Shown: positions 6,847-30,960 of the stretch, one piece after another | Position numbering within the stretch: position 1 is the stretch's first letter | Layout: each line of letters starts with the position of its first letter | NCBI GenBank assembly: GCA_902569115.1 | Contig: CACFTI010000018.1 | Span: 1-44,974, forward strand | Reading direction: 5' to 3' | Length of the DNA stretch: 44,974 nucleotides | From: an uncultured Verrucomicrobiota bacterium | GTDB taxonomy: Bacteria > Verrucomicrobiota > Verrucomicrobiia > Opitutales > Seribacteraceae | Position numbers and translations under genes: made by a program | Notes under the pieces: generated by a model | What the model was told of the DNA's origin: nothing | The model's input: the letters and a program-made list of their open reading frames with translations, nothing else | Database searches by the model: none

Positions 6847-6888
6847 AAGTTAGTTGCTAAACGGTTCGATTTAGTATCTAAAGAAAAT

Positions 6889-7065
6889 ATGTGCAAGATT
6901 CTAATGGTGACTTTATTACTAGCTTTTACCTCCTGCACTCAAGTGGTTACACTTCCCGTTCGCACCTTATTGGATATGCCCTCCAAAGTAGAACGAGTTA
7001 GAACTTCATCCACTCACGATCTTACCACAGATCCGGAGATGTCCTCCTCTTCCAACTTGGACTAA
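6889..7065 (+). CDS. Putative very small lipoprotein
   Basis: A 58-codon frame, ATG at 6889 to TAA at 7063-7065, between divergent and convergent neighbours. The first 16 residues look like a type II signal peptide: a short charged start (MCK), a hydrophobic run (LMVTLLLAF) and a lipobox-like FTSC with Cys at residue 16. The mature part would be about 43 residues, Ser/Thr-rich, with a polar C-terminus. Phe at lipobox -3 is not ideal. There is only a weak purine stretch (AAAGAAA) before the ATG. The ORF fills an otherwise empty 250-base gap, which supports it modestly. I recognise no family; it may be spurious. Confidence 0.45.
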   Translation: MCKILMVTLLLAFTSCTQVVTLPVRTLLDMPSKVERVRTSSTHDLTTDPEMSSSSNLD

Positions 7066-15974: not shown

Positions 15975-16856
15975 CTACCAAAGATTGAGCCTTGTATTTT
16001 TCCACCTTCTCATTTGTCTCAGCGAGTAGCCCAAAACATTTTGGCTTACACATTTTTCAAAGGATGGGATCATGATTGGTACATTTTCTGTTTGATTATT
16101 TTTTCTGGTCTCAAGCTTTTCCATCCAAGACTCCCGGTATGAGCCTAGCAAGTGTACGCCAAAGGTATCTTCATGAATACAAGCGTTCGGATAAAGGTTT
16201 GTTATATGTCTTGGAGAAATCGTTTTCGCCTCGCATTTATGAGCCAGACCAGCCTGTGCGGTGGGTATAATCCATTCAGGAATTTGGTGAAGTCGATCCT
16301 CTCCCAGAAACCACTCCAGGTAATCCCAGTCGATTGCTGATTTATCCCAAAACACCAACCCTGTGGTGATTCCCTTGACTGCCTGAGGTTTACTTTTACC
16401 GGTAAGCATTTGCCAGGGGCGAAAAGAATAGGCATCCCACTGAGTGTCCTTTAGGAAAACAGCTCCATTTTTTACCTGCTCACGGTCAAATAATCCGGAG
16501 AATGGGCGAAGGAAGAGAATATCGGCATCGAGGTAAAAACTGATTGGGTCCTCTGGGAATGCGAAAATGGGGTCAAAGAACTCAATTCCCCAAATAGAAT
16601 TCTTTCTAATCTTTTGGCAGTTTGGTTTGTCTTTGAGATGGTCAAGTACACACTCTTTTGACCGACCGAAGTTTGAAACCTTAACACAGGACCCAAATTT
16701 AAGGCAGAGTGAAGTTTCATCCCTTTCGGATAAAGAGCCATCTGTATGAATCAGAAGATTGATATCATCAGTAGAATTTTTTACCAATGAATCTAAGCAA
16801 TTGATGTAAAAAGATAAATTTTTTGAACCTACTAGACTTTGAATAGTTAATTTAAT
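15975..16856 (-). CDS. DxD-motif (GT-A) glycosyltransferase with an apparent ATT start
   Basis: About 293 residues. A DADILF motif (from PISFYLDADILF) is the metal/nucleotide-sugar site of a GT-A enzyme, and the layout (strand, HTDGS, DxD, then acceptor region ending in a His/Trp-rich tail) resembles GT8-like proteins. The first ATG/GTG/TTG-type codon is TTG at 16787, but the frame stays open upstream and encodes a convincing N-terminal strand and helix: KLTIQSLVGSKNLSFYINC. Between the upstream stop and 16787 the only possible starts are ATT (16856, giving MKLTIQ...), ATC (16862) or ATT (16844). I place it at 16856, 18 bases after the preceding gene's stop. Family membership is moderately secure, substrate unknown. 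Confidence 0.72.
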   Translation of the reverse strand: MKLTIQSLVGSKNLSFYINCLDSLVKNSTDDINLLIHTDGSLSERDETSLCLKFGSCVKVSNFGRSKECVLDHLKDKPNCQKIRKNSIWGIEFFDPIFAFPEDPISFYLDADILFLRPFSGLFDREQVKNGAVFLKDTQWDAYSFRPWQMLTGKSKPQAVKGITTGLVFWDKSAIDWDYLEWFLGEDRLHQIPEWIIPTAQAGLAHKCEAKTISPRHITNLYPNACIHEDTFGVHLLGSYRESWMEKLETRKNNQTENVPIMIPSFEKCVSQNVLGYSLRQMRRWKNTRLNLW

Positions 16857-16874
16857 GCTGATTTTTTACTGAAG

Positions 16875-17912
16875 CTAAAGCTTGTAAAGAGATCGATATA
16901 AATACCTAGATAAAATATGAGTTGGTTTTTCGACTAAAAAATAAAAGATTAATACCAGCATACCCAAAATAATCCAGTAAGAGAAAAACTTTTCCATTGG
17001 GCCAATATCTTTGGTGAAAATTGAAATTAAAAAGGGAGGAAGTCCATGCATTAAGTAAATCGAGTAACTCGCTTTACCAAAATTTTCTAGGGATGAAATT
17101 GGCGTTCTATTGAAGTAAAATAAAATCTCTTTTTTTAACCAAAAAAAGGCTGCTATCGCAAAAAAATTAAGAGTAAATGGATGTCCAACGATTTCCTGAA
17201 GTGCGAAAACATGGCAGAGGAATGCGATAGAAAAAATAAAAATTCTATGGCACCATAGACTTATTCCAGTCACCTGATCATTTGTCGGTTGTTCGTCTAT
17301 GGAAAAACTCATAATCAGGCCAAGTATCCAGCAGGGAAGTCCTAGAGCAACCACCATATAAACTCCGACTCCAGGGTAATTGACCAAATTTAAAGGATAA
17401 AACCAAAAAACGAGCACAGTCGGGGTGTATGAAAAAATGAGAAACTTTAGCCACCCAGTTTTTTTATTTATCAATGATCTTAGAAAAGGGTAGAATACAT
17501 AATAAGACAGTTCGCAGACAATAGACCATCCAATCAGCAGATAAAAGAGAGATGTATTAAAGCCAATCAATTTTACGATTACAGCAGCACAAATTATTGG
17601 CGCAGATATCCTTGTCACCCGAGCCATAATGAATGGTAAGATGTTTTTTTTGTGCCAGGATTCTCTATACGGATAATGTATACAGAATCCACTTATTAAA
17701 AAGAAGATTATTACAGCAGCAGGACCACAAAATAGTGAAGTATAGATGCCGTTAATTAACCATTCGATCGTATTATCCTTATCAAATGTAATTGTTAATG
17801 GAGGGTAACCACCGTGGCTGCACGCAACCCATATCGCACAGATAAAGCGAATACTATCCAATCCCCTTACTCTTTTATTTTTTATTACAGATTTAGAATC
17901 AATGATTTTAAT
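16875..17912 (-). CDS. Acyltransferase-3 (OafA/YrhL-type) membrane protein with an apparent ATT start
   Basis: A multi-span O-acyltransferase-like protein, about 345 residues. The family signature RVRGLDSIRFICAIWVACSH lies at the N-terminus and FLISGFCIHYPYRESW follows the second span; the end is FLVEKPTHIL, as in other members. The only standard-type start, TTG at 17861, would remove the conserved RG before LDSIRF. The frame is open back to 17912, where ATTAA overlaps the stop of the upstream aminotransferase (ATT 17912-17910, TAA 17910-17908). A start there gives MKIIDSKSV...; ATT at 17903 is an alternative. It probably O-acylates the locus glycan, like its paralogue at 13786. Confidence 0.83.
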   Translation of the reverse strand: MKIIDSKSVIKNKRVRGLDSIRFICAIWVACSHGGYPPLTITFDKDNTIEWLINGIYTSLFCGPAAVIIFFLISGFCIHYPYRESWHKKNILPFIMARVTRISAPIICAAVIVKLIGFNTSLFYLLIGWSIVCELSYYVFYPFLRSLINKKTGWLKFLIFSYTPTVLVFWFYPLNLVNYPGVGVYMVVALGLPCWILGLIMSFSIDEQPTNDQVTGISLWCHRIFIFSIAFLCHVFALQEIVGHPFTLNFFAIAAFFWLKKEILFYFNRTPISSLENFGKASYSIYLMHGLPPFLISIFTKDIGPMEKFFSYWIILGMLVLIFYFLVEKPTHILSRYLYRSLYKL

Positions 17913-19008
17913 ATAAAAAGTTTGTTACAGCAGAAATGATCTTATCAACTTTTTCGGCACTCAATTCTGGAAACATTGGCAGAGTAAGATTTCTTTGGTA
18001 GAATCGGTCAGTAACTGGGAGGTTCTCCCCGCCTCGTATTCGTTTGGCATAGGCGGCGTGTTGATGAACTGCCAGTGGGTAGTGCAGACTCGCTCCAATC
18101 TGGTGAGATCTTAGGTGCTCCATCAATTCATTTCTTCGATCATGCTCAATCACATAAAGATGCATCGCATGGAGCTCATTTTCATTTAAGGCGGGTAGGG
18201 TAATGGGTAAATCTTGAAAAGCTTGATTGTACCTAAGTGCGATTGCTCTGCGTTTGGCATTATCATTCGCGAGGTGATGTAGCTTTACCCGTAAGATGGC
18301 TGCCTGAAGTTCATCGAGTCTCGAATTAAATCCGGGGATGATACTTTCTCTCGCTTCGTTCCAACCGTACTGTCGGAGAGATTTTATCTTTTCGGCAAAC
18401 TCTTTGGACCGACAAAGAATTACCCCTCCATCTCCCGTACCACCCAGGTTTTTGGTTGGATAACAGCTGTAAGCGGAGATATCGGCAAAGGTGCCTACTT
18501 TTTGTCCATTGATCTCCGCACCATGTGCCTGCGAACAATCCTCCACTACCGCTAGGTTGTAGGCTTGTGCAATCTCCAGAATCCTGCCCGTTTCAGCTGG
18601 TTGGCCATAAATATGAACTGGCATAATCGCCCGGGTATTGCCGCCTAGAATCTCCTTTATTGAATCGGGGGCAATGCATCTTGTATTCGGATCGATATCT
18701 GCAAATACCGGGGTGCAACCTGCCTGTTCAATCCCGGCAACGGTGGCCACTGCCGTGTGGGACGTGGTGATGACCTCATCCCCAGTCTCAAGCCCAAGAC
18801 CCCTTAGGCACAGGGCAATGGCATCGGTTCCATTGGCCACTCCAACAGCATGAAAATTCTTGCCATGGAAAGATGCAAATTCCTCTTCAAATGCATCGAC
18901 TTCAGTGCCTAATACATACCACCCCGAGTCGAGAACCCGCTTGATCGCCTGATCAATTTCAGACTTATGGGCTTGGTAAGAAGCCGATGGATCACCAAAA
19001 GGAATCAT
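17908..19008 (-). CDS. DegT/DnrJ/EryC1/StrS-type sugar aminotransferase
   Basis: A PLP-dependent transaminase converting a nucleotide-linked keto-sugar into an amino sugar. In the 366 residues, NGTDAIALCL (60-69) is the phosphate-binding region, VVEDCSQAHGA (154-164) holds the Asp that binds the pyridine nitrogen, and SCYPTKNLGGTGDGG contains the PLP lysine (K186). The YPTKNLG context is the pattern of 3-amino-sugar enzymes such as FdtB/QdtB, so a dTDP-3-amino-3,6-dideoxyhexose is a reasonable but unproven guess. The gene follows the SDR gene at 19018 closely (9 bases). ATG at 19008 without a Shine-Dalgarno sequence. Confidence 0.93.
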   Translation of the reverse strand: MIPFGDPSASYQAHKSEIDQAIKRVLDSGWYVLGTEVDAFEEEFASFHGKNFHAVGVANGTDAIALCLRGLGLETGDEVITTSHTAVATVAGIEQAGCTPVFADIDPNTRCIAPDSIKEILGGNTRAIMPVHIYGQPAETGRILEIAQAYNLAVVEDCSQAHGAEINGQKVGTFADISAYSCYPTKNLGGTGDGGVILCRSKEFAEKIKSLRQYGWNEARESIIPGFNSRLDELQAAILRVKLHHLANDNAKRRAIALRYNQAFQDLPITLPALNENELHAMHLYVIEHDRRNELMEHLRSHQIGASLHYPLAVHQHAAYAKRIRGGENLPVTDRFYQRNLTLPMFPELSAEKVDKIISAVTNFLY

Positions 19009-19017
19009 GGGGAATGG

Positions 19018-20004
19018 CTAGATGTAGTATTCAATGTCCCCTTGGAAATACTCAAGGGACCGTTGGATCCCATCTTCAAAACTTACTTTGGGTTCCCATC
19101 CAAATTGATCACGAAAGGCAGAGTAATCACAGATAAAATCTCCCACATCGATCGCCTTTCTGTCTTCAGGAAAAGGAATCAATTGATAATCACCACCCTC
19201 GATCTTCTGGCACATAATTTTTGCCGTGTCCTCAAGACTGAGTGGGTCGGGTGCTCCTAAATTATAAACTTTGCCGATAGCATTCTTCTCGGTGGCTCCG
19301 ATCAGCAAGGCATCCAGCACATCCTCGACATAGTTGTAGTCTCTGCGCTGCTTGCCATCGCCAAAGACCTGAATTGGTTTACCCTCGAGCAGGTTTCTTA
19401 TCCAAATGCCTAAGAAGGTTTGCCTGGCATCCCTGATTCGCATTCTCGGCCCGTAGGTATTGGTTAGACGGAGTACAGATGAGGCAATGCCATATACCTC
19501 TTGGTAGAGAATATGGTACTGCTCGCCGGCAATTTTATTAATTCCATTTACATCTACCGGATGGCGGGGGTGTTTTTCATCAACTGGCAAGTACTTGGGC
19601 TTCCCATAAATCTGGCGGGTACTGGCAAAGACAATGCGAATATCAGGGTTATATTTCCGGCAGGCCTCCAAAATAGATAGCTGAGCTTTCGCATTGATGT
19701 CCAAATCTGTAATCGGGTCGTGCATCGAGTCAAGGTGGCTGGTCTGCCCCGCTAAGTTAAATAGGTAATCGTGCCCTTTGATCAAATTCTTGATCGCTGC
19801 AACATCGCGTACATCGGATTGGCTCACTGTAATCTTGTCCTGGATGTCGTGAACATTTCTCAGGTTTCCTCCGTATTCAGGAATCAAGCTATCAATAATT
19901 TTCACATTATTACCCGATTCGACCAACCTGCGAGTTAGGTTGGACCCAATAAACCCCAGGCCCCCGGTAATGAGGATCTTCTTATTGAGTATGTTTACAC
20001 TCAA
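19018..20004 (-). CDS. NAD-dependent sugar epimerase/dehydratase (extended SDR) lacking the usual Tyr
   Basis: A 328-residue extended short-chain dehydrogenase acting on a nucleotide sugar. The Rossmann motif GGLGFIG (14-20) is intact, an FAST segment supplies the Ser/Thr, and RLTNTYGPRM plus QRRDYNYVEDV are normal substrate-side blocks. The catalytic YxxxK is NGINK (153-157): Lys157 is kept but the Tyr position is Asn153. The start is TTG at 20004 in a TTGA overlap with the acetyltransferase stop; the first residues before NKKILITGG are variable, so a later start is unlikely. With the adjacent aminotransferase it probably supplies an unusual sugar for the glycan. Exact reaction unknown. Confidence 0.88.
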   Translation of the reverse strand: MSVNILNKKILITGGLGFIGSNLTRRLVESGNNVKIIDSLIPEYGGNLRNVHDIQDKITVSQSDVRDVAAIKNLIKGHDYLFNLAGQTSHLDSMHDPITDLDINAKAQLSILEACRKYNPDIRIVFASTRQIYGKPKYLPVDEKHPRHPVDVNGINKIAGEQYHILYQEVYGIASSVLRLTNTYGPRMRIRDARQTFLGIWIRNLLEGKPIQVFGDGKQRRDYNYVEDVLDALLIGATEKNAIGKVYNLGAPDPLSLEDTAKIMCQKIEGGDYQLIPFPEDRKAIDVGDFICDYSAFRDQFGWEPKVSFEDGIQRSLEYFQGDIEYYI

Positions 20005-20549
20005 CTTATGGCCCTTTCTCCAATCTTTTTGGCGGGGTTACCCGCTATGATTTGATAATCGGGTACATCTTTGGAAACCACTGACATTGCCCCGATAATT
20101 ACCCATTCCCCAATGCAGACTCCAGGAAGAATCATTGCCCGGGCTCCGATGAAAGCATTTTTTTCAACTGTGATCGGCTTCGTGATGAGTTGTAGGCTAG
20201 GGTCATTGAAATCATGGGTGCCGGTGCATATATAGGCTTCCTGAGCGACCGTAGCCCCCTCTTGGATCTCTATTTTCCCTAGAGAGTAAGCATTAGCACG
20301 TTCGCCTAGGCAGGCACGATGCTTCATGGTTAAGTTCCATGGAATCTGGATTCTTGCCGTACTATGAATAAAAGGCATTCCCGAAAGGTTCGCCCCAAAA
20401 GTTTTAAGCACAAGAACCCGCCATGGATTGAAAAACTTGGGGGTCCACCGGCAAAAGACCAGCCAACTAAATCGCCAGCAAATCAGGAGAACCTGAGCCC
20501 ACCAAGGCCAAGGGTTTTGGTAAGGGGATTTCTGTCTTTTAGGATTCAA
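20001..20549 (-). CDS. WcaF-like left-handed beta-helix acetyltransferase
   Basis: A 182-residue hexapeptide-repeat O-acetyltransferase of the WcaF/LbetaH type, usually acetylating a sugar of an exopolysaccharide with acetyl-CoA. The N-terminus has a tryptophan-rich hydrophobic stretch (residues 13-35), then PFIHSTARIQIP, CTGTHDFNDP (catalytic His region) and a C-terminal repeat block ending DVPDYQIIAGNPAKKIG, the classic family end. The start is TTG at 20549, forming a TTGA overlap with the upstream GT4 stop, and there is the same type of overlap at its own end. It is of normal size for WcaF proteins. Confidence 0.9.
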   Translation of the reverse strand: MNPKRQKSPYQNPWPWWAQVLLICWRFSWLVFCRWTPKFFNPWRVLVLKTFGANLSGMPFIHSTARIQIPWNLTMKHRACLGERANAYSLGKIEIQEGATVAQEAYICTGTHDFNDPSLQLITKPITVEKNAFIGARAMILPGVCIGEWVIIGAMSVVSKDVPDYQIIAGNPAKKIGERAIS

Positions 20550-21565
20550 GAAACTAGCTCTAGCATTTTATTTGCGGTATGAGCAACGCCATCAAAAAAA
20601 GATTTTCTTGGTTTCTCGATGTACTGAAGCAATTCTTCTACTGAAGAATGGTCATTGATCAGAAGGATTTGGTCCTTGAATGGATCAGGAATGAACAGGC
20701 TTTCCTGCAGAGTATCTCCATCATCATAAGCCAAAACGGGTAAACCATGTTCAAACATTGCTGCCGTAGCACCACTTTTGCCTATTACATCATAGGGGGT
20801 AGTGGATACACCAAGTGAACATTTCTGGAGTAGTTCTGAAATTAAGTCGGTAGATAGCTCACCAGTTCTTTCAACTAAGAAATCATTCTTTTTGCATAGG
20901 GAATAGAGATGATTAGAACCAGCATCTTCCCTTTGTCGCCCAATCAGTATGATTTTCAATTTCTTTCCGGAGGTATTGGATAGATTTGAAAAAAAATTAC
21001 CTAGCTTATCGTAGGGAAAATCAGCGTAGGGTGTGCCAAAAAAAGCGACATTCAGGGTTTGCCCCTTAGTTGTTGCTTTGGAATTGGCTAAGAAGGGTAT
21101 ATTACCAAATAAATACAGGAATATGGCCGGAACACCTGCTTGTTTTAATCGATCAAGTGCAGCTGCATTGGACGAGGTGATCCATGCCGGTTTGCACTTA
21201 TTGATAAAACGAAGAGTAAGTTTTTTTTGAAGCCACCCGATCCCTCTTTCTTTGTAATTTGCATTAGGGTATGCTCCCACCCAAATCTCATGAAAGTTCA
21301 AATGAACTTTTTTATACTGCAGTTTTCTGGCGAGGCACTTCAGGATTTGATTAGGTAAACCGTTTCTGGCGAATGAATAAGGAGCAAATTGAACGCTGTA
21401 GAGATCTGCGTCGGGCAAGTCAGTCAATTCTACACAATCCTTGTTAATGAAATACAGTTCGGTCTGATGCTCAAGTTTCTCGAGTCTCTGGGCTAGGAGT
21501 TCCACATAATCAGTAATACCACATTGCTTGGATTCTTTTTGACCGGTGATAAAACAAATTTTCAA
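20546..21565 (-). CDS. GT4-like glycosyltransferase
   Basis: A 339-residue GT-B type protein. The N-terminus MKICFITGQKESKQCGITDYVELLAQRLEK has the loop after the first strand seen in GT4 enzymes that begin with a CGITDY or CGIADY motif. The C-terminal half contains KIILIGRQRE and a donor-site region around GKSGATAAMFEHGLPVLAYDDGD, where the usual first Glu is not obvious. The start is TTG at 21565; no ATG lies in frame before the first strand. It is followed by the acetyltransferase with a TTGA overlap. Substrate unknown; assignment rests on overall GT-B layout. Confidence 0.74.
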   Translation of the reverse strand: MKICFITGQKESKQCGITDYVELLAQRLEKLEHQTELYFINKDCVELTDLPDADLYSVQFAPYSFARNGLPNQILKCLARKLQYKKVHLNFHEIWVGAYPNANYKERGIGWLQKKLTLRFINKCKPAWITSSNAAALDRLKQAGVPAIFLYLFGNIPFLANSKATTKGQTLNVAFFGTPYADFPYDKLGNFFSNLSNTSGKKLKIILIGRQREDAGSNHLYSLCKKNDFLVERTGELSTDLISELLQKCSLGVSTTPYDVIGKSGATAAMFEHGLPVLAYDDGDTLQESLFIPDPFKDQILLINDHSSVEELLQYIEKPRKSFFDGVAHTANKMLELVS

Positions 21566-21572
21566 AAATGTC

Positions 21573-23024
21573 TTAATTACGATTAAATCGTAAAACCAAA
21601 GGATAATGGTTTATTTCCGAAATGCTGTAGCCATTTTCAATAGCCCACTCCATTGGGTTGAAATCAATATCGGAATGGGGTCCAGAATAGTAGTAATGAT
21701 ATATAAATTGATCTAATTTAGCTAAATCTTTTTTTGATCTCGGTAATAGCATCTTATTAAATTTAGGTAATTCATTGAAATCATCTATATCTGTCCTCAA
21801 TAGATATGATTGCACTCCCCAATCAGAGCGATGAATAATTTTCAAGAAGGTTTCTAAGTGACTTGTGAAAAAAGGGATTTTAGAATTCGTAATCTTGGAA
21901 TGATCAAATTCCATTGATCCGGGGTAATTTTTCTCGACAGATACTTCTTTTTTGGAAAAATTTCTAATACCCCAAGCCATTATTAGTATACAAGATATTA
22001 TTATTAATGAAATAGTTGAATTTCGTGACAAGGTAAGTGGTCGAAATAAAAATATAAACCAAATTGCTAATGCCACTATCCCAATTTGTGCAGGGATGAA
22101 ATAACGAAAATAGGTTCCTTCTCCTACAGTAACGGAAAGTGACGCGATAATTATTGATGGGCTTGCACCTAGTAAAAGTAAGCCAATGGGAACATTATTT
22201 TTGTCGTAAACTTCTTCTTTGCTAAAAAAGGAAAATATAACAAAAACTCCAAAGCAAAAGATAGCAGGAAAAGATAATGCTCGATAGTAGGAAATAATGT
22301 CTTGGAATGTAGTTCCACCATGAGTTCCAGCAAAAAAAAGAAAATTCAGTTGGTCGGGTAAAAAGTAGGAGTAAGTGAGAAAAGTAGGAGCTAATGTAAT
22401 GATGAATGCCAGCCACTTTTTCCAATTCGATAAATCACTAAATAATAAAGGTATGGAAACTAACATCCCAATAGGTAGCCCATAATAGTGGGTGTGGGTA
22501 AGAACTTGAAAGGCAGTCCAATAGAGAACAAAATTTAATTTACTTTGTTTTTTTTGGAAATTGATTGCAGCTAATGTAGTGGCCAAGGATGCACAATAAT
22601 ATAAACAATATGGCCTAACATAAATCGATTGTGTCAGAAAAGCTGACTTTATTGTAGAAATTGAGACAGTAGAGAAGATAGCAATTTGCCAATTTGTGAA
22701 ACTCCGAAACAACTTATATGAGAGCGTTACAGATATCCATAAAAAGGGTATGTGTAGCCACAATAAAATTTCATTGGGAAGTTTTAATGCATCTACCAAT
22801 AAATATGCGGTAAAGAAGTATAAAGGAGGGAATAAGTTAAGCCCTGACTTTGAAGCTGTAATCACATCATTAAGGCTTTCCTGATTAATTAAGGTTAATG
22901 TTAACAGATCATCCACATTTTCCCATGAGAACTCATAGAAGTTGTTAAATAGATAAACAGATTGAGTAATGCACAAAGTAATTAAAATTAAATATGCTGT
23001 GCTCTTATAGTGAAAACTAGTCAT
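21573..23024 (-). CDS. Multi-span membrane protein, GT39/ArnT-like (GT-C)
   Basis: About 483 residues with around ten membrane spans. The first luminal loop carries an acidic segment (ENVDDLLTLTLI) of the kind that holds the catalytic Asp in GT-C transferases using polyprenyl-phosphate sugars; a soluble C-terminal domain follows the last span. I see no motif that fixes the substrate. The start is ATG at 23024, overlapping the stop of the upstream GT9 gene by 8 bases; a TTG one codon earlier is possible. A/T-rich compared with its neighbours on the left. Confidence 0.7.
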   Translation of the reverse strand: MTSFHYKSTAYLILITLCITQSVYLFNNFYEFSWENVDDLLTLTLINQESLNDVITASKSGLNLFPPLYFFTAYLLVDALKLPNEILLWLHIPFLWISVTLSYKLFRSFTNWQIAIFSTVSISTIKSAFLTQSIYVRPYCLYYCASLATTLAAINFQKKQSKLNFVLYWTAFQVLTHTHYYGLPIGMLVSIPLLFSDLSNWKKWLAFIITLAPTFLTYSYFLPDQLNFLFFAGTHGGTTFQDIISYYRALSFPAIFCFGVFVIFSFFSKEEVYDKNNVPIGLLLLGASPSIIIASLSVTVGEGTYFRYFIPAQIGIVALAIWFIFLFRPLTLSRNSTISLIIISCILIMAWGIRNFSKKEVSVEKNYPGSMEFDHSKITNSKIPFFTSHLETFLKIIHRSDWGVQSYLLRTDIDDFNELPKFNKMLLPRSKKDLAKLDQFIYHYYYSGPHSDIDFNPMEWAIENGYSISEINHYPLVLRFNRN

Positions 23025-24081
23025 CAAAGCAGGGACTGTAGACTTTTATAAGTTTCTCAAAAAGTTTGTATGCTTCATTTACAGAAGTAATTTTCTCTTT
23101 CGCGTTACTTACATCCTTGCCTGCGATAGTCCCTTCAGGGTAACCCCATTGTTTTTGATGTAATGCTGCACTGCCGTACCACTCGCCTAGCAAAGTTAAT
23201 GCAGGTACTTTAAAGGCTCCTGCCAGATGCATGCACAAAGATGAATTGGAAATCACAAAGTCAGAAAGTGAGACCATGGAGGCAGATTGGCGTAGGCTTA
23301 ACACACCGCAATGGTTGGTGAGCTGGGCAGAGTCATTTGCCGAAATCCGGTTTCTATCCTCTTTGGACCCGATGATACAAATTTGATAATTCTTATTTTT
23401 GAGCAGAAGATTTGTTAGATGAGAGAAGTTTTGGTCACCCCAGCATTTTTCGGGGAACCCCCCCCCGGGGGCTAGAACTATACGCTTCGTGCTTGAGGAT
23501 CTTTCACCCCAAGAAACTTCAGCTTCGCTTTTCTCATTTTCGGTTAAATAAATAGTAGGTCTCGCATCAATTTCAACTTCAGTGTCCAAGAGTTTTAGAA
23601 ACTCCAAGCCAGCTTCTGCCACCTTCCTGTCTTCCTTGAAATCTATGTATTTGGTGCACCAGTTTTCCCCGCCGGCATAGCCCTTTACTCCAAACCTGTT
23701 TGGAATTTTTGCCCTTCGCATCAACCAAGAACCTTGCCTGCTACCCAAAACATCCAACCCATGAGTGAATTTTTTGGATGAAATATATCGTGATTCCTTG
23801 GAAAAAAGCACATACAGAATACCTTCCAAAAATGTTTTGGGAGAATTTGCAGGAAATCTGCAATTTTGTTTGTTATGCCAAGGGCCATTACAAGCAATAA
23901 CTTCATCCACGAATAGATTATTTTCCAGCAAAGGCTTTGCCCAATCCCCCACACCAATCGAGACTTTGGACTCAGGAAATGCTTTTTTTAATCCTTTTAG
24001 TAGAGGAGTTGCGACGAGTACATCACCTAGGTCGTTGTTTCTTAGAACAAAAAAGTTTCTTGGGTTGATGCAGTTTTTCAA
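23017..24081 (-). CDS. GT9 family (ADP-heptose:LPS heptosyltransferase-like) glycosyltransferase
   Basis: A 354-residue GT-B enzyme of the heptosyltransferase family. Early residues LRNNDLGDVLVATPLLKGLKKAFP give the GDxxxxxP motif of GT9. The C-terminal domain has APGGGFPEKCW (204-214) and a nucleotide-site block SDFVISNSSLCMHLAGAFKVPALTLLGEW; the S-C-M-H-L-A part corresponds to the usual TGxxHLA loop. The start is TTG at 24081 in a TTGA overlap with the FkbM gene. The three Gly codons 206-208 form an unbroken G9 tract. Donor may be ADP-heptose or another sugar. Confidence 0.88.
   Translation of the reverse strand: MKNCINPRNFFVLRNNDLGDVLVATPLLKGLKKAFPESKVSIGVGDWAKPLLENNLFVDEVIACNGPWHNKQNCRFPANSPKTFLEGILYVLFSKESRYISSKKFTHGLDVLGSRQGSWLMRRAKIPNRFGVKGYAGGENWCTKYIDFKEDRKVAEAGLEFLKLLDTEVEIDARPTIYLTENEKSEAEVSWGERSSSTKRIVLAPGGGFPEKCWGDQNFSHLTNLLLKNKNYQICIIGSKEDRNRISANDSAQLTNHCGVLSLRQSASMVSLSDFVISNSSLCMHLAGAFKVPALTLLGEWYGSAALHQKQWGYPEGTIAGKDVSNAKEKITSVNEAYKLFEKLIKVYSPCFDD
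23458..23466 (-). repeat. Nine-G homopolymer tract inside the GT9 gene
   Basis: On the coding strand CCCCC is followed by nine G (23466 down to 23458), encoding Ala-Pro-Gly-Gly-Gly. Gain or loss of one G would shift the frame in the middle of the protein. Tracts of this length are known contingency loci in other bacteria and are also common sequencing-error sites. Confidence 0.6.
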
Positions 24082-24950
24082 ACAGGTGCAAGTGCTAGGA
24101 CATCTGTGGCAAAATCATTTGGGTATTGTTTCGCTAAAAATCTCGAAACTAATGGTTTGAATTTACGATTTCTAATGGGTAAAAACTTCGGTTCTTGCCC
24201 AAATAAACCTAAATCTTCCTTCTTACAAAGATATAGTTTATACCCGTGTGATTCCATGTAGAGAAGGGGATCAATTGTATTTAGCCCATATCTTGATTGA
24301 TTCTCGGGAATTATTTCAAGGTAAACGGTTTTAACGATCCGTTTTGATAAACATTTATTCCATCCTTTGAGGGCAGGTACCTCATGTCCTTCAAGGTCAA
24401 TTTTTGCAAAGTCAATTTTGGAAATGTTGTTTTCAATGCAGTAATTATCCAAATTTAAGTTTGGAATTTTGACGCCGTATTCTTCGATTGTTGCAACATG
24501 TGATTGTCCTGATTGTTTATTGGAAAGACAAAATTCAGTTATGCCTTCCTCCTCCGTTACGCATGCATGCGAAAGTTTAATTGAATTAGCAGTATGATAT
24601 TTGATGGAATGACTGAGCAATTCGATCATTTTAGGGTTTGCTTCAAATAAATGATAATTACATTTTGGTTTGGCTGGTAACATACCAAAGGTGCATAGCC
24701 CCACATTTGCACCTAGGTCAAAAAAGACTCCATTATCGGGCATGAAGGCTTTTGCTATTTCAAAAAAAGCAGGTTCAAATGACCCTCTGATAAATGCATT
24801 TCTCGGCTCTGGATCCATTAAGTCAATGAATGCAATCGCATTTTGATTAAACTTAATCTTACAGATTTTCTCCTGCAGTCCCATTTTGCAAAGAAGTTGG
24901 ATAATACTGTGCTTTTTTGCAATTCTGGGTAGATATTCAGCTAGTTGCAT
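24078..24950 (-). CDS. FkbM-family methyltransferase
   Basis: A 290-residue SAM-dependent methyltransferase of the FkbM type, which O-methylates sugars in polysaccharides and natural products. The SAM motif is GVFFDLGANVGLCTFGM; the FkbM core continues through FEANPKMIELL, then IDFAKIDLEGHEVPALKG, the KIDLEGHE block being diagnostic. The first 50 residues are an N-terminal extension. ATG at 24950, within a 14-base overlap of another FkbM gene; the stop overlaps the TTG of the GT9 gene. Specificity unknown. Confidence 0.9.
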   Translation of the reverse strand: MQLAEYLPRIAKKHSIIQLLCKMGLQEKICKIKFNQNAIAFIDLMDPEPRNAFIRGSFEPAFFEIAKAFMPDNGVFFDLGANVGLCTFGMLPAKPKCNYHLFEANPKMIELLSHSIKYHTANSIKLSHACVTEEEGITEFCLSNKQSGQSHVATIEEYGVKIPNLNLDNYCIENNISKIDFAKIDLEGHEVPALKGWNKCLSKRIVKTVYLEIIPENQSRYGLNTIDPLLYMESHGYKLYLCKKEDLGLFGQEPKFLPIRNRKFKPLVSRFLAKQYPNDFATDVLALAPV

Positions 24951-25629
24951 AGAGATAAAAAAAATCTTTATCTAGTTTTGATAAGTCATTCGGATCAACT
25001 TCAGGAAAGCCACTTTCGATTTTCTTGAAAAGTTTATAACCGAGATCCTGAAGGAAATTAAAAAATATGGTTCTTTCATTCCCAGTAATAGTAACTTCGA
25101 TCGAAAGTTTTGGCTTATATTTCATCAGGGTGTTTTCAAATCCTTTAAGTGCATTAAATTCAAATCCCTCAACATCACATTTAACAAAATCTAAACTTTC
25201 CAAAGCATTTTTTCTAAAATAAGTGTCGAGCGATATCAAAGGCACCTGTACTTTTTCAAATGCATAGTTTAAAGGTTTTATAAGCGAAGCTTTTTCCGAG
25301 TCATTCGGATTATAGTGCATGTCTACTAGACCAATGTGATCCCCTACTGCCTTATTAATTGTTCGTACATTCCCAAAGCTTTCCACTGAATAAAGAAGTT
25401 TGTGAAAAGTTGAGGGTATTGGTTCAAAAGAATGAACTTCGCCGTATTTTCCACATAATTTTGAAAAAAGCATCGTGAAATAACCAATATTTGCACCAAT
25501 ATCAAAGACCACATCTCCTTTCTTGATAGTATTCAAATATAACAGCTTTTCGTGATTTATAAATTTCTGTCTTGAAAATAAGAAGGCATATATTCTTGGG
25601 AACTGAATTAACCACGAGTATTTATGCAT
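24937..25629 (-). CDS. FkbM-family methyltransferase
   Basis: A 230-residue FkbM methyltransferase. Motif GDVVFDIGANIGYFTMLF binds SAM, VHSFEPIPSTFHKL follows, and LDFVKCDVEGFEFNALKG is the family's catalytic-side block. It is shorter at the N-terminus than its neighbour at 24078 and not a simple duplicate. ATG at 25629, overlapping the stop of the upstream GT gene by 8 bases. Two FkbM genes side by side suggest two distinct methylation positions or sugars. Confidence 0.9.
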   Translation of the reverse strand: MHKYSWLIQFPRIYAFLFSRQKFINHEKLLYLNTIKKGDVVFDIGANIGYFTMLFSKLCGKYGEVHSFEPIPSTFHKLLYSVESFGNVRTINKAVGDHIGLVDMHYNPNDSEKASLIKPLNYAFEKVQVPLISLDTYFRKNALESLDFVKCDVEGFEFNALKGFENTLMKYKPKLSIEVTITGNERTIFFNFLQDLGYKLFKKIESGFPEVDPNDLSKLDKDFFYLYATS

Positions 25630-26737
25630 ATAATTTTGAGCCTTTCACGAATTGGTTTATGCAACTTTTGAATTCATCGCTTCTTTTTAATGTTGAGTGG
25701 AATGAATAGACAGCCTTGCGCCTTTCCCTAGTTTCTGAGCTTATTTCTTCACAAAGACTTTTTTGAATGGCACATTCAAATTCTTCGAAAGTTTCGCACA
25801 AGAATAATAATTCTTTATATTGGTATATGTTTAATAATTTTGAACTCACAACGGGAAGGCCAGCCGAAAAATAATCAAATAATTTCAACGGAACACAGTG
25901 GAGATTATGAGGATCTGATATGTCATAAGGCATAAAACCAACTTGGCACTGGGAGATGATGTAAAGCATTTCTTGTTTTGATACCGAGGGAATTTCGAAA
26001 AGATTTTTTTTGCGTTGAAATTCAGTTCCTCCAAAACTGATAAATGAACACGAAGGGAATCGTGATGGTATGGATTGATATATCTCACTATTCAATCTGC
26101 CTACACCCAGTCCTGCGTAGATTAGTCTCGGTTGTGGAATTTCTTCTAAGATTTTATCTAATTTTACTTTTTGATTTCTTTTTAAGGGAGAATTGAATGT
26201 AGATGTTACTGGTTGTGGCCAAAGAATGAGACTTTTTTCTGGATATCTTTGTTGGAGTAATTGATACATCGTTGGAGGTATTACGAAAATGCCATCTGCT
26301 AGATTGCAGTTAAAGAGTAGAAGGTCGTTTATTTCCGTGTAGTCAGCGCAAAGGTAAATCAAAATGTCAAAGTATGATTTAAATTTTTCGCTTAATCCTG
26401 AAAGTGACTCTAAGTTATTATAGAATAATATCTTTTTAACTCTTTTATGGCATTTGGGTTTGATTTGCTTCCAAAGAAAATAGTTTTGCATTCTACCCCC
26501 TAGGGGTAATGTTGTGATCCTGGTCGATAGGTTTAGTAGATTTTTTGCTTCAATACCATCAATAGAGGAGCAATTTTTAAAATTATTCTTTGTTTTTAGG
26601 ATACTACGAGGCTTTGAGAAGTGCCTGACTTTAAAATTATTAAAAGCTGCAGACTCGCATAATAACTCCAATACATTTGGGTTGTTCCAACTAAAATTGG
26701 ATAGGAATGTTATTTCCGTCGTAGCTTTTGTTTCCAT
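25622..26737 (-). CDS. GT-B glycosyltransferase (GT1/GT4-like)
   Basis: A 371-residue protein with two Rossmann-like halves. The second half has RLIYAGLGVGRLNSEIYQSI, then FMPYDISDPHNLHCVPLKLFDYFSAGLPVVSS, which is the donor-site region of TuaH/GT1-like transferases (KLFDYFSAGLPVV). No membrane span. ATG at 26737; its 5' end overlaps the preceding GT2 gene's 3' end by 28 bases, and its stop overlaps the FkbM start. Substrate unknown. Confidence 0.78.
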   Translation of the reverse strand: METKATTEITFLSNFSWNNPNVLELLCESAAFNNFKVRHFSKPRSILKTKNNFKNCSSIDGIEAKNLLNLSTRITTLPLGGRMQNYFLWKQIKPKCHKRVKKILFYNNLESLSGLSEKFKSYFDILIYLCADYTEINDLLLFNCNLADGIFVIPPTMYQLLQQRYPEKSLILWPQPVTSTFNSPLKRNQKVKLDKILEEIPQPRLIYAGLGVGRLNSEIYQSIPSRFPSCSFISFGGTEFQRKKNLFEIPSVSKQEMLYIISQCQVGFMPYDISDPHNLHCVPLKLFDYFSAGLPVVSSKLLNIYQYKELLFLCETFEEFECAIQKSLCEEISSETRERRKAVYSFHSTLKRSDEFKSCINQFVKGSKLYA

Positions 26738-27576
26738 TCTACTTTAAAGAGGAAATAAGTACTTAAAAAGGTTAAGTATATGTTAAACAGGTGTACCGCA
26801 TAGCCTCGGTTTCTGTAGCGGAAAATACTTTTTATTTGATCCGTGGTTAGCATGCGGAAAAGATTGCGAAAGTACAACTTCCAGTTTGTGATTTCAGTAA
26901 TTCCGTGTTTAGCGGTAAATAGCTTAATAGATTCAATTTCATACCCTTTTCTTTTCCAGTTTTTACCACCTGCTTTTAAAGATCTCCAAGGGTGACAAAC
27001 GGATGCATCGTATACAAAAACCGTTTTTTGAAATGAAGTTTTAATTCTGTAAGCAAAATCAACATCTTCAAAAGCCACTTCAAAAGTCTCGTCAAACCCT
27101 TGTAACTCTATAAAAAGAGACTTTTTTATGCATAGATTACTGGTCCAGAGCATTCCGCCCTTTTCGTTTTCTGGGCAACCTTCTGCCCAGGATCTTTTCG
27201 GTCTGTCTGGAAAGATCCTTCCTTCAAATACACTAGTGTGCTTATTCTCTATAATTGCATTTGCGTAAGACTCTAGATAGCCATTTGAAGCAATGCAGTC
27301 ATCATCGAGAAAGACAACCCATTTTCCCTTAGCTCGATTGGCTCCTGCATTTCGATTTCCAGCGGGACCATTTCTCTTGCCTCTTCCCCAAGAAACTTCA
27401 GGGAAATCCGTAGTTACCATATTTTTACAGCGATTTGTTACAGAATCGTCTGTAACAAGTATTTCATAGCTTGGGGCTCCATTTTGATTTTCTGAACTAA
27501 GTGAAAGAAGGCACTTTTTCAAGTCATCAGGTCTTTCATAGGTTGGAATTACTACACTAAAAAAAGGGGGAGTCAT
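26710..27576 (-). CDS. GT2 glycosyltransferase
   Basis: A 288-residue GT-A enzyme. FFSVVIPTYERPDDLKKCL is the N-terminal strand-helix of GT2, EILVTDDSVTN the nucleotide region, GNRNAGANRAKGKWVVFLDDDC places the DxD (DDD) motif, and AFEDVDFAYRI is the ED base region. The start is ATG at 27576 with an ATGA overlap with the upstream gene; a TTG three codons earlier is in frame but unnecessary. C-terminal residues after 230 are helical and basic. Substrate unknown. Confidence 0.9.
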   Translation of the reverse strand: MTPPFFSVVIPTYERPDDLKKCLLSLSSENQNGAPSYEILVTDDSVTNRCKNMVTTDFPEVSWGRGKRNGPAGNRNAGANRAKGKWVVFLDDDCIASNGYLESYANAIIENKHTSVFEGRIFPDRPKRSWAEGCPENEKGGMLWTSNLCIKKSLFIELQGFDETFEVAFEDVDFAYRIKTSFQKTVFVYDASVCHPWRSLKAGGKNWKRKGYEIESIKLFTAKHGITEITNWKLYFRNLFRMLTTDQIKSIFRYRNRGYAVHLFNIYLTFLSTYFLFKVEWKQKLRRK

Positions 27577-28646
27577 TTTGTGCAATGAGTAGCGATAATT
27601 CCATTAAGAGCAGAGAGAAAATTATCATTAAACCTGTTGAGAGTAAAGTGACTCTCGGCGAATTTTCGTCCTCTTTCCCCCCATAGTATTGATTGTTCTC
27701 TATTATTGAGTATTTTTTTCATCGAAACTGACCATCCATTGAAGTCCTGAGGTTGGATCAATTCTCCAAATCCACCATTTTCAGGATCTATGTGTAAACA
27801 TCCCGATTTAGTCATTAATACAGGCTTTCGCATGGCCATAGCTTCAAGCATATTTGTATAGCCTGATGTATCCTCGGAGTTGCCGGTCAAAGAAATACAA
27901 ACCGCGATGCATTGCGAATACCATTTTCGGAGGGTGGGGTAGTCAATCGCCTTGTCTGGTGGATCGATGGAAGAATCAATCCAGTTAACATTGTGAGGCA
28001 GTTGACTGGGTTTTTGACAATTGGGAGCGATGATTCTTATTTCAGCCGAGACATTGTATGCACTTTTAACGAGGGTATCATAATCTCTTTCAGTTTTTCC
28101 TGTGGCTAAAAAAAAAGGTTTTGGGTACTCCTCATGAATATCTGTTTTACCATCAAAAAGTTCCATGTCTACACACCATGGAATAAATCTAGAGGGGGCG
28201 AATTGGTTAAAGTAATTTTCGGCACTTGGAGTTAGGCAAAAAAAACCGGCAGATTTATTTAATTGATTCTTCCTGTAAGCTAGTTGATATGATTGATTAT
28301 CAGATTTTTGGGTTTTAAATGTCCATGCCAATACTTTATTTGGAAACAATAATGATGTTCCCAGTGGACCACAAACTGAATAGATGAAATCTGAGTTTTT
28401 TGAAGCAAAATAAGCTGATAATTCTGCTCTAGTACCAGGAGAATTCCTAAATATTGATCTGTCTAATAATCTTTCAAGCAAGCTTGGAAGCTTTATTTTA
28501 TTAGTTTTTATGAATTTAAATTCGAATTTATCGGATTCTTCCAATACATCAATTCCCCAAAGGTGATTTTTTGGGTATAAACCAGCATCAATCTCGGATC
28601 TTCTTGACTCGAGATAGGGATGAAGGATTGAGATTCTTTTCTTAAT
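27573..28646 (-). CDS. GT-B glycosyltransferase with an apparent ATT start
   Basis: About 357 residues. The donor half contains PFFLATGKTERDYDTLVKS and SEDTSGYTNMLEAMAMRKPVLMT, a GT4-like nucleotide-sugar site. The frame is open well upstream of the first standard-type start (TTG 28544) and encodes KKRISILHPYLES...YPKNHLWGIDVLEE, the N-terminal strand and loop (HLWG) expected for such enzymes. No ATG, GTG, TTG or CTG lies there. The only early candidate is ATT at 28646, in an ATTAA junction with the stop of the DUF5672 gene. An ATC (28634) is a weaker alternative. I therefore extend the gene by 34 codons. Confidence 0.8.
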   Translation of the reverse strand: MKKRISILHPYLESRRSEIDAGLYPKNHLWGIDVLEESDKFEFKFIKTNKIKLPSLLERLLDRSIFRNSPGTRAELSAYFASKNSDFIYSVCGPLGTSLLFPNKVLAWTFKTQKSDNQSYQLAYRKNQLNKSAGFFCLTPSAENYFNQFAPSRFIPWCVDMELFDGKTDIHEEYPKPFFLATGKTERDYDTLVKSAYNVSAEIRIIAPNCQKPSQLPHNVNWIDSSIDPPDKAIDYPTLRKWYSQCIAVCISLTGNSEDTSGYTNMLEAMAMRKPVLMTKSGCLHIDPENGGFGELIQPQDFNGWSVSMKKILNNREQSILWGERGRKFAESHFTLNRFNDNFLSALNGIIATHCTK

Positions 28647-29463
28647 ACCTAATGTAGTTTTTCCAAAAATCAGGGTTATTATTCATCCAATTATGGCAAC
28701 CCATTGGAAGGATTCCTTTGGTTACTTCACGAAATAAAAACTCTGGAAGTACCTCAAACGAGTAACTGGCTGCAGTTTGAGGATCTGCAATTTTAAATTG
28801 ATCTGCTGAGAAAATTTCGGGTATGTATGTACTCCAAAAAATATCCTCACCGGGTGCTTCTTTTATGTAGTGCTTTAAATTGTTCCTAAAACCAAATCTT
28901 TTAATAATTCCTTTCCATGTGTTTTGCTTAAACTTAAATACAGGAATTCTTCCTTTTGGTGTAGATTCAATTTGTTCTATTATAGATTTGAAGGTTTTGA
29001 CCTTGCGAAGCGAGAAACCTCCGTTTCCTACCCTCCATAATTGTTCTTTTGGTTTTCCAACAAATGCATCAACCATCCACGGTGCTCCGATATAATCAAA
29101 ATTAAGATTAGTAAAAAAATCTAATTTATCTTCAAAGACCCAGCAATCAGTTTGGATTATTTGCAGATATTGAAAATTACTGAAAGTGTCATAAAAAAAT
29201 TTGCGACAAAGTAACTTACTGTATGAAAACTTATCTGTAAAAAAATTATCATTAAAGGAAACCGATTGAAATTCATTATTATTATTCCATTCTTTTTTTA
29301 ACGATTTGGGCAAAATTAGTCTAATTTCTCTGTTTGAGAAAACGGTTTTTATTTTATTTAGAAGTCTTATTTCCGATTCATTTAATGAATTATATTCTTT
29401 ATAAATCGGGATAAGAATAACAACACGAGATGAAAAACGAGTGTCTTTATTACTCATTTTCAT
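28642..29463 (-). CDS. DUF5672 domain protein, probable glycosyltransferase-like
   Basis: About 273 residues matching the DUF5672 pattern: VVILIPIYKEYNSLNESE at the N-terminus, FQYLQIIQTDCWVF (the usual Q-T-D position), YIGAPW, and RVGNGGFSLRKVKTF, followed by a C-terminal GCHNW. The family is found in polysaccharide loci and is thought to be a GT-A-like transferase, but its activity is not established. I prefer ATG at 29463 (MKMSNKD) over the ATG at 29493, because the earlier one lies wholly inside the upstream GT2 gene and adds nonconserved residues. A second ATG follows at 29457. The stop forms the ATTAA junction with the next gene. Confidence 0.78.
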   Translation of the reverse strand: MKMSNKDTRFSSRVVILIPIYKEYNSLNESEIRLLNKIKTVFSNREIRLILPKSLKKEWNNNNEFQSVSFNDNFFTDKFSYSKLLCRKFFYDTFSNFQYLQIIQTDCWVFEDKLDFFTNLNFDYIGAPWMVDAFVGKPKEQLWRVGNGGFSLRKVKTFKSIIEQIESTPKGRIPVFKFKQNTWKGIIKRFGFRNNLKHYIKEAPGEDIFWSTYIPEIFSADQFKIADPQTAASYSFEVLPEFLFREVTKGILPMGCHNWMNNNPDFWKNYIRY

Positions 29464-30316
29464 AGAGTTGCCTACATTTAGAAAATAAATCATTTAATAA
29501 AAGAACAAAAGGTAGCAATATAGAAATTGTCATACACAAGAAGTCCCTGTTTCTTAAATCTTTGCGTGCAAAAATTAGAAAACTACTTTTAGATGTAATA
29601 AAAAATTGAGTGATTATTTTACGAGGATGTTTATAATGTGAATTCCATCTTAGATATCTCATATACAGGCTTTTCAGAGACTCTTTTCTAAGTGAGTATG
29701 TAATTAATTTAGGTTCTGATATTAATTTATAGTTGTTATCAAGTAGTTTTTCACCCATGTCTTGATCTTCACATTGTTTAAGATTTGGATCGAAATTACC
29801 AACTTTTATTATATGCTCTTTTCTTAATAAGACCGCATAGGTTATCAGACAATTAACGGTATGGGGTTCAGATTTATGATAATCATTTTGCTGAAAAAGG
29901 TGGACTGCTCTCCATTTACTTAATGTATCATCTAAACTTTCATGATTCATAATCCTACCGAAACATGCACTTACTAAATTATCATTAAAGTGTGGAAGAC
30001 TTAGTTCTAAAAAGTTTGGTTTAATTACATTCGAACTATCGCAGAATAAAACAAAAGGAGTTTTGGATTCAGAAACTCCAACCATCCGTGCGTATCCTCT
30101 TCCTGAATATTTATGAAGAGATATAATTCGACATCCAAGTTTTCTAGCAATCTCAACTGTCCTATCTGAAGAGCAATCATCAATTACAATTATTTCGGCG
30201 AGCGGTAATGTTTGTCTTTTTAGAGAAGAAATAGTGTCTTTTACCGTTTCTTGAGCATTATGGCACGGAATAACACCTGTTATTAACTCTTTTATTTTAT
30301 ATTTACTGTATCTAAT
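29450..30316 (-). CDS. GT2 glycosyltransferase with an apparent ATT start
   Basis: About 288 residues. An internal ATG at 30085 would drop the whole nucleotide-binding part. Upstream the frame is open and encodes a perfect GT2 N-terminus: ELITGVIPCHNAQETVKDTI, EIIVIDDCSSDRTVEIARKL and GYARMVGVSESKTPFVLFCDSSN, where CDSSN stands at the DxD position. A stop (TAG, 30322-30320) bounds the frame. Between it and the first conserved strand there is no ATG/GTG/TTG/CTG, only ATT (30316) and ATA codons. I place the start at 30316 (MRYSKYKIKE). The C-terminus has one hydrophobic segment. This is the clearest case of a hidden non-standard start in the window. Confidence 0.82.
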   Translation of the reverse strand: MRYSKYKIKELITGVIPCHNAQETVKDTISSLKRQTLPLAEIIVIDDCSSDRTVEIARKLGCRIISLHKYSGRGYARMVGVSESKTPFVLFCDSSNVIKPNFLELSLPHFNDNLVSACFGRIMNHESLDDTLSKWRAVHLFQQNDYHKSEPHTVNCLITYAVLLRKEHIIKVGNFDPNLKQCEDQDMGEKLLDNNYKLISEPKLITYSLRKESLKSLYMRYLRWNSHYKHPRKIITQFFITSKSSFLIFARKDLRNRDFLCMTISILLPFVLLLNDLFSKCRQLYENE

Positions 30317-30391
30317 TGTCTAAGACTAATAAGGTTTGCTCTATCAGATATAAGATCACTGGAAGTCAAATTCTTGATTTCATAATCTGGT

Positions 30392-30960
30392 TTAATACTT
30401 TTGAATTATACTTTGATAATTAATACTCTTTGTTTTAACTACCCCTATACCTACATCAAAATTTAAAGTATAAGAATCAAAATGTTTATTCAATTTTCTA
30501 AAATGATGTATTGTTTTCAGACATCACCATTACAATTTATTGCTTCTTTAGGAATTTCTGGTGATCCGCTTTCTGCTGATTTAGGATTACAGTCATGTAA
30601 AATAATATATCCATCATTTTTTAAATATTTGAGACAGTTTATGGTATCGTGTAAACTTTGCTCGTAGGTATGCATTCCATTGATAAACGCTATATCAATC
30701 TTACTGTTCTTATAAACCTGTGGAGCTTGTTCTCTAAAGAATAAATCACTTGTTTTACGATACATCTTATATTTCCAGTTATGAAATTTAAAACATGATT
30801 TAAAAAGAAATCTTTTCGAAAAAAAATAATCAGGATCGATTCCAATTTTATTTAGATACTTAATTGAAAAAAAGTTCTCACCATTACGAACGCCTATTTC
30901 AAGATAATTTTTGATGATACTATTTGGATACAGCGAATTAATGAAATTAGTTCTATTCAT
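30392..30960 (-). pseudogene. Class I SAM methyltransferase (Methyltransf_24-like) broken by a one-base frameshift
   Basis: The first 147 codons (ATG 30960) give a SAM methyltransferase: YLEIGVRNGENFFSIKYL, IGIDPDYF, IDIAFINGMHTYEQSLHDT, and GYIILHDCNPKSAES. The frame stops at TGA (30519-30517) after INCNGDV, where homologues continue with W-K. Adding a single G there (TGG instead of TG) restores W-K-T-I-H-H-F-R-K-L and an uninterrupted 42-codon tail with VGIGVV, ending at TAA 30392-30394, so the original protein was about 189 residues. The tail is a typical C-terminus for the family. It is either a real pseudogenizing deletion or a sequencing error; translation as is would lose the last fifth. 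Confidence 0.82.

Follow-up and report, generated by a model that had tools for sequence, protein, structure and literature searches.

A contig of 44,974 nucleotides (nt) from an uncultured Opitutales bacterium of the phylum Verrucomicrobiota (CACFTI010000018.1; this whole stretch is called the window below) carries what we read as a surface-polysaccharide locus, in which four minus-strand genes, A to D, lack a standard start codon, i.e. ATG, GTG or TTG, ahead of their conserved part. Our reading of the sequence, to which we give a probability of about 0.6, is that A–D are intact polysaccharide-biosynthesis genes which would be translated from near-cognate AUH codons (AUU, AUA or AUC; ATH in the DNA) by termination–reinitiation. 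That the AUU and AUA codons, and perhaps AUC, are genuine starts seems highly probable; termination–reinitiation as the commonest route to them is also favoured, with clearly less assurance. This reading builds on the absence of standard starts, on a frame that is conserved before the first of them, on a biased second codon and, less strongly, on a biased overlap with the preceding stop codon.

Each frame was walked upstream to its in-frame stop and the codons were listed from there. In gene A this stop lies at 16868–16866 and the first standard start is TTG 16787; in B the stop is at 17927–17925 and TTG 17861 comes first, within the conserved GLDSIRF stretch; in C (stop 28685–28683) it is TTG 28544, past the HPYLESRR...HLWG stretch; and in D (stop 30322–30320) it is ATG 30085, at codon 78. 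An earlier note on this DNA had proposed AUU starts for all four genes, at 16856, 17912, 28646 and 30316. The ATT codons are indeed there, followed by AAA, AAA, AAG and AGA, i.e. by AAA or AAG in three genes as the note said, and both the frame walk and the homology census described below bear out its open frames without a standard start where homologues begin. Alignment with homologues likewise places conserved N-terminal parts ahead of the first standard start in A, C and D. The note had further described the frames as extending upstream of every CTG, which fails for C, where an in-frame CTG at 28673 precedes the ATT.

AUU initiation as such is well supported by the sequence for A and C. In B, visual alignment matches an in-frame ATA-AAA at 17885 to an ATA-AAA of the homologue in the related genome G013, and the start may be either AUU (ATT 17912) or AUA (ATA 17885). 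For D, the 15 mapped homologue starts fall at codons 1–16 with a median of 8, counted from ATT 30316 as codon 1; ATA 30295 is codon 8, is followed by AAA and sits on the TAA of the upstream gene's last frame as A[TAA] (brackets mark the stop). Because it fits the homologue starts better, ATA 30295 is the more likely start of D, so that the earlier claim of AUU initiation probably does not extend to this gene.

The window's own assembly (G000) and 91 relatives, nearly all of them draft assemblies, were searched with each of the four proteins. Many homologues begin with a plain ATG. The A homologue in G013 (64% identical) has no standard start and carries ATT at the visually aligned codon; the B homologue of the same genome (66% identical) has none until codon 63 and reads CTT in place of TTG 17861. 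Standard starts are also missing from the C homologues in G007, G013 and G014, from a D homologue in G058 and from GT9-like genes of G007, G010 and G020, which are 51–56% identical to each other. Such cases are thus not restricted to a single locus: nine further genomes have them in their polysaccharide loci. Eight (G004, G007, G010, G013, G014, G020, G022 and G041) belong to two genera of the family; the ninth, G058, has a single case. A cytidylyltransferase gene of G013 reads stop-K-Q-ATT-KRLAIIPARGG, with the ATT at the position expected for the methionine. In some genes the first standard start lies 56–169 codons in, within or beyond conserved domains, e.g. at codon 169 in an epimerase gene of G022 (locus L186, position 6294), at codon 56 in a cytidylyltransferase gene (L182 4164) and at codon 148 in the G013 homologue of A (L185 5928), which is so deep that a downstream start is untenable in these three. 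The G016 homologue of A (G016:C3:142251-143143, L018) is broken by two TGA codons inside the main match.

Before the first standard start, divergence by codon position follows the pattern of coding sequence (position 3 > 1 > 2). Values for positions 1/2/3 were 0.498/0.224/0.659 in the first 26 codons of A, 0.427/0.294/0.564 in the first 46 codons of C and 0.359/0.252/0.606 in the G013 homologue of A (1798 codon pairs). The test was applied to twelve genes; L186 6294 and L228 10298 gave no data, having no homologue in the identity range, and window gene B was left out.

The start codons themselves were analysed in 27 cases, 25 obtained by rule after two rows (L186 15065 and L189 744) had been dropped by hand, their homologue start lying far inside, and two (L182 4164 and L182 10672) added by hand because a coding scan had found them, with the expected start also set by hand. 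The candidate was the ATH codon nearest the median homologue start, chosen blind to the codon that follows. An ATH near the homologue start was present in all 27 cases (nearest codon ATT in 16, ATC in 6 and ATA in 5), and AAA or AAG (AAR) followed in 12/27, compared with 20/561 ATH codons at positions 2–16 of normal genes (p=7.5e-10) and 51/743 further inside the same 27 genes (p=2e-7); omission of the two hand-added genes leaves 11/25 (p=4e-9). As a control, the nearest AAR codon was likewise present in 27/27 and was followed by AAR in one; other codon classes were present in 12–23 of the 27 with AAR next in 1–3, serine codons excepted. Among anchored starts in polysaccharide loci, AAR is the second codon of 34/235 ATG, 36/131 TTG and 3/43 GTG starts, i.e. 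the weaker start TTG is also richer in AAR than ATG.

A feature beyond the earlier note is the overlap of candidate starts with the stop of the preceding gene (AT[TAA], A[TAA]). An upstream gene end, sought between −60 and +150, was found for 18 of the 27 cases. In the first overlapping register, where the frame is open over the stop, the overlapping codon is ATT in 5/7 (window genes B and C and one gene each in G004, G041 and G013), against 14/87 ordinary pairs (p=0.003). In the other register, ATA lies on TAA or TAG in 4/5, against 27/76 non-NTG codons of ordinary pairs (p=0.07). D was left out of this count, the preceding methyltransferase being frame-broken. In ordinary overlapping pairs, TTG and ATG starts number 50 and 57 in polysaccharide loci and 13 and 51 elsewhere.

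In the mechanism that we propose, a ribosome finishing the upstream gene would re-initiate either on a codon sharing bases with that gene's stop (AUUAA, AUAA) or on one up to ~20 nt beyond it, and this AUH codon would be read by the ordinary CAU initiator transfer RNA (tRNA). Such weak starts may be tolerated because of the tight AT-rich operons, the sparing use of Shine–Dalgarno (SD) sequences in the lineage and a low yield that would suit glycosyltransferases; low expression might even be wanted. The AAA or AAG second codon could partly compensate for the weak start, and short distances together with AT-rich RNA could help reinitiation.

How frequent missing starts are was assessed in a homology census of open reading frames (ORFs) of at least 150 codons with homologues in at least two other genomes, a homologue start being required upstream. 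Only non-overlapping, best-supported ORFs were kept, a first census having been overrun by shadow ORFs on the antisense strand and by flanks that are conserved but non-coding; the final census ran purely by rule, with no hand changes, and takes in L186 15065. The stretches were chosen by hand: those called polysaccharide-type hold A–D homologues or other glycosyltransferase hits, and some genes in them are non-polysaccharide, whereas the 'other stretches' came from the own genome, contigs of G026, G021 and G007, and infC neighbourhoods. Among window genes only A–D were flagged (4/34 testable, 4/33 in the final census). Looser limits flag 5/38; the fifth, a short plus-strand ORF at 6823-7065 flagged under these limits only, was judged spurious. 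With 21/441 further genes from polysaccharide-type stretches of the family, the total is 25/474 (~5%), compared with 6/394 in the other stretches (p=0.002) and 1/98 in polysaccharide-type stretches of other Opitutales families (p=0.045); single extra loci gave 0/12. Four of the six flagged 'other' genes form one family downstream of infC (41–86% identical, ~455 codons), which we take as noise because its mapped starts are scattered, and which is nevertheless counted among the six. By guanine-plus-cytosine (GC) content, missing starts in the family loci amount to 12/99 genes below 34%, 8/110 at 34–38%, 5/117 at 38–42% and 0/148 above 42%; below 38% GC, family polysaccharide loci gave 20/209 and other stretches 0/45 (p=0.017). 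The loci of other families are mostly GC-rich, with seven genes below 38% GC, none of them flagged. TTG starts, too, are commoner in polysaccharide loci (146/470, 31%) than elsewhere (93/489, 19%). A coding-potential scan of 445 kb of own sequence including the window, which has little power for short N-terminal stretches, flagged no missing starts.

The window is a whole contig (C18) of G000, a metagenome-derived assembly of 2.38 Mb in 97 contigs that is 70% complete. Its IF3 shares 78–92% identity with the IF3 of 26 records (L075-L100), most of which are metagenome assemblies with Opitutales, Opitutia or Verrucomicrobia in the title. The locus consists of minus-strand genes in a long run. 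Pfam families among the proteins run were acyltransferase, glycosyltransferase, DUF5672 and methyltransferase; aminotransferase-like and epimerase-like proteins were named by eye only. GC content drops to 28% at 30–32 kb. The methyltransferase gene that precedes D switches from frame 1 to frame 0 and back to 1, and these two frame changes may reflect decay or assembly indels.

Table 1. Genes A–D, adjoining stops and genes, and the infC-neighbour family (window coordinates unless a locus is given).
Feature	Position	Strand	Description
Gene A	15975..16856	-	no Pfam family, glycosyltransferase-like on inspection; ATT 16856-16854 as proposed start, then AAA
TAG stop of gene B	16875..16877	-	18 nt ahead of the gene A ATT
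Gene B	16875..17912	-	acyltransferase family 3, PF01757; start ATT 17912-17910 or ATA-AAA 17885-17883
TAA stop of gene upstream of B	17908..17910	-	one base in common with ATT 17912-17910, as AT[TAA]
Gene upstream of B	17908-19008	-	aminotransferase-like by eye
Gene C	27573..28646	-	weak Glyco_trans_1_4 match, under cut-off; proposed start ATT 28646-28644, then AAG
TAA stop of DUF5672 gene (28642-29493)	28642..28644	-	one base in common with the gene C ATT
Gene D	29450..30295	-	glycosyltransferase family 2, PF00535; likelier start ATA 30295-30293, second codon AAA; alternative ATT 30316
Methyltransferase upstream of D	30292..30960	-	PF13578 on first part; last frame ends in TAA 30294-30292
Ragged infC-neighbour family	L077 11932, L078 9054, L080 11917, L092 11852		no ATG/GTG/TTG for 25-37 codons, four species

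An important question is whether the initiation machinery of these bacteria offers a reason for unusual starts. SD motifs precede 12/277 anchored ATG starts in polysaccharide loci and 16/335 elsewhere (~5%), and an SD-like motif stands before 2/27 candidate starts, the G058 case having GGAGGAG; a strong SD sequence ahead of the weak start, as in Staphylococcus aureus, is therefore not the rule here. Among 11 genomes, full-length 16S rRNA genes were found in two, G013 and G041, and both have an intact anti-SD end. The ribosome recycling factor (RRF) was found in 34/39 genomes and in 18/18 of those at least 90% complete. The earlier note had drawn a parallel with the autoregulation of infC by IF3 and had pointed to IF3 residues that reject non-AUG starts. 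This parallel finds no support: infC begins with a conserved ATG in 25 kin loci (L075-L099), and IF3 is unchanged in 26/26 kin at E. coli positions 75, 99, 110 and 131, which we take to be the residues that matter. Elsewhere in IF3 the clade shows R129M (26/26) and R147Q (19/26), in E. coli numbering; chain 5lmn_X, presumably the T. thermophilus protein, also has M at the place of R129 in the alignment.

An ATH-reading initiator tRNA was seen neither among the 28 tRNA matches in G000 (70% complete) nor, in G026, among the 26 of 37 tRNA matches whose loci were run through ARAGORN. The CAU initiator tRNA does show variants. With a search pattern that leaves position 29 free, A29 appeared in all matches, which were obtained in 71/92 relatives and 81/145 genomes of the phylum, and U41 was read in 32 loci; the conserved pairs of initiator tRNA are G29-C41, G30-C40 and G31-C39, and its usual end pair is C1-A72 (excerpt of PMC11497404). 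Wherever a match was obtained in the window's genus and in a second genus of the family, position 1 is A (g2: G027, G033, G035, G037, G039, G040 and G041), and also in G051 from another family; it is U in G028 (g3) and G029 (g4), and U or C in most of the order. The partner of position 1 was read as U72 in G000 and G026, and C occupies position 73 in most loci read. The missing-start genomes lie in the two A1 genera, except for G058 (U1); G020 gave no tRNA match. Since this involves a single clade, the co-occurrence of A1 tRNA and missing starts is a correlation only. A broader proposal, which we advance tentatively and with the odds somewhat against it, is that two genera of one marine Opitutales family use an expanded start set (AUU, AUA and AUC beside AUG, UUG and GUG) for surface-polysaccharide operons, at dedicated AUUAA and AUAA overlaps with an AAA or AAG second codon, and that an initiator tRNA deviating from the usual bacterial form, with A29-U41 and A1-U72, would permit it.

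Several observations weigh against translation of A–D from AUH codons by termination–reinitiation. Several genes, among them B (ATT 17912 or ATA 17885) and C (ATT 28646 or CTG 28673), leave a choice of start codon; AT-rich DNA contains many ATH codons; and serine codons near the start are followed by AAR in 8/23. Low GC and polysaccharide function are largely confounded, because missing starts become more frequent with decreasing GC and there are few AT-rich genes outside such loci. The machinery, with RRF present and an IF3 that looks ordinary, reveals no change that would force AUH starts and thus provides no explanation. Other objections concern the coupling. A start on or soon after an upstream stop is seen for part of the cases only: no upstream gene end lies in range in 9/27, and another 4/27 are in the frame that allows no overlap; gene A is not overlapped, its ATT lying past the stop of B; and coupling at D is doubtful because the upstream gene is frame-broken. 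In two of the four genes with ATA on a stop (L175 2412 and L182 4164) another ATH is nearer the homologue start, and without the hand-added genes the overlap test weakens to 4/6 for ATT (p=0.012) and 3/4 for ATA (p=0.15). The same gene A and the same nine cases would suit ordinary de novo, SD-independent initiation at AUU and AUA on AT-rich unstructured mRNA, with the overlaps a mere effect of compact operons, and the rarity of SD motifs (12/277 ATG starts in polysaccharide loci) implies that most initiation must be SD-independent anyway. We nevertheless regard this alternative as unlikely in view of the excess of ATT and ATA exactly on the upstream stop, even if this is weaker without the two hand-added genes.

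The remaining explanations deny the AUH starts altogether. Decay, i.e. loss of start codons by mutation in genes that are now silent, could draw on the two frame changes in the methyltransferase gene, the broken G016 homologue of A and the strong AT bias. It is improbable, however, given that the frames otherwise run their full length, that divergence is of the coding type on either side of the first standard start, that the starts of A and B are missing likewise in a related species at 64–66% identity, and that the AAR second codon and the stop overlap are non-random. Translation from the first internal ATG, GTG or TTG, with the frame upstream untranslated, would cost B only a few residues if TTG 17861 were used; yet the G013 homologue has CTT at this place and no standard start until codon 63, and the cost would be conserved N-termini in A, C and D and N-terminal domain sequence in other cases, which makes this reading more improbable still. 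Errors of base calling or assembly at the start codons might be suspected in a metagenome assembly that is 70% complete and has a frame-broken neighbour gene, but nine other assemblies show the same pattern, A and B each lack the start in two species, and cases are confined to genes below 42% GC in the family loci, so that errors hardly come into consideration. Stop read-through was rejected, as the frames differ between cases.

If near-cognate starts by termination–reinitiation do operate here, the consequences reach beyond one locus. Near-cognate AUU and AUA starts in bacteria have so far been rare and mostly single cases, and the earlier note rightly called the phenomenon unusual. Their use in several percent of one functional class would mean that start-codon stringency is non-uniform within bacteria. 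Gene callers limited to ATG, GTG and TTG, which would truncate A–D as the note foresaw, would then systematically truncate or lose polysaccharide genes in a marine group. AUUAA and AUAA would be a testable re-initiation signal, and the initiator tRNA variants that co-occur with missing starts would give concrete access to the control of stringency. In the open-licence literature, no paper among the matches listed dealt with AUU or AUA starts in polysaccharide loci or in Verrucomicrobiota.

How do these starts compare with known systems? An AUU start is natural in E. coli infC. The other systems are known to us from excerpts of the papers cited, and the comparisons apply to these excerpts. In S. 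aureus, infC, cvfC1, ccpN and citZ have AUA or AUU starts, and AUU or AUA reporters reach ~10% of AUG in poor medium, with ccpN up to 30% in rich medium (PMC13009471). The likeness to both species lies in AUU or AUA as a natural start from which weak expression is expected. The difference is that S. aureus uses them in a few single genes, with an extended SD stated for infC, cvfC1 and ccpN (PMC13009471), whereas here many biosynthetic genes in operons are concerned, with almost no SD; moreover, infC, which starts with AUU or AUA in E. coli and S. aureus, has ATG in these Opitutales. Termination–reinitiation at overlapping ATGA and TGATG pairs (PMC6728339, PMC10666635) has in common with our cases that ribosomes are probably delivered through the stop–start overlap of unidirectional gene pairs. 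Those overlaps, however, carry ATG, and AUUAA and AUAA go unmentioned in the excerpts; an AT[TAA] register is impossible for ATG. A text search for AUU or AUA in a 2025 review of translational coupling (PMC12548453) gave no hit. Initiation near stop codons at non-canonical codons also resembles what happens downstream of stop codons when RRF is inactivated (PMC2268962), except that RRF genes are present here. Finally, a survey of start-codon switching, which likewise measures the loss of ATG among close relatives, counted 1/61,358 ancestral AUG starts that became AUU (PMC5622118). Such surveys rest on annotated starts; set against that figure, a frequency of ~5% missing starts in the polysaccharide-type loci of one family is out of the ordinary.

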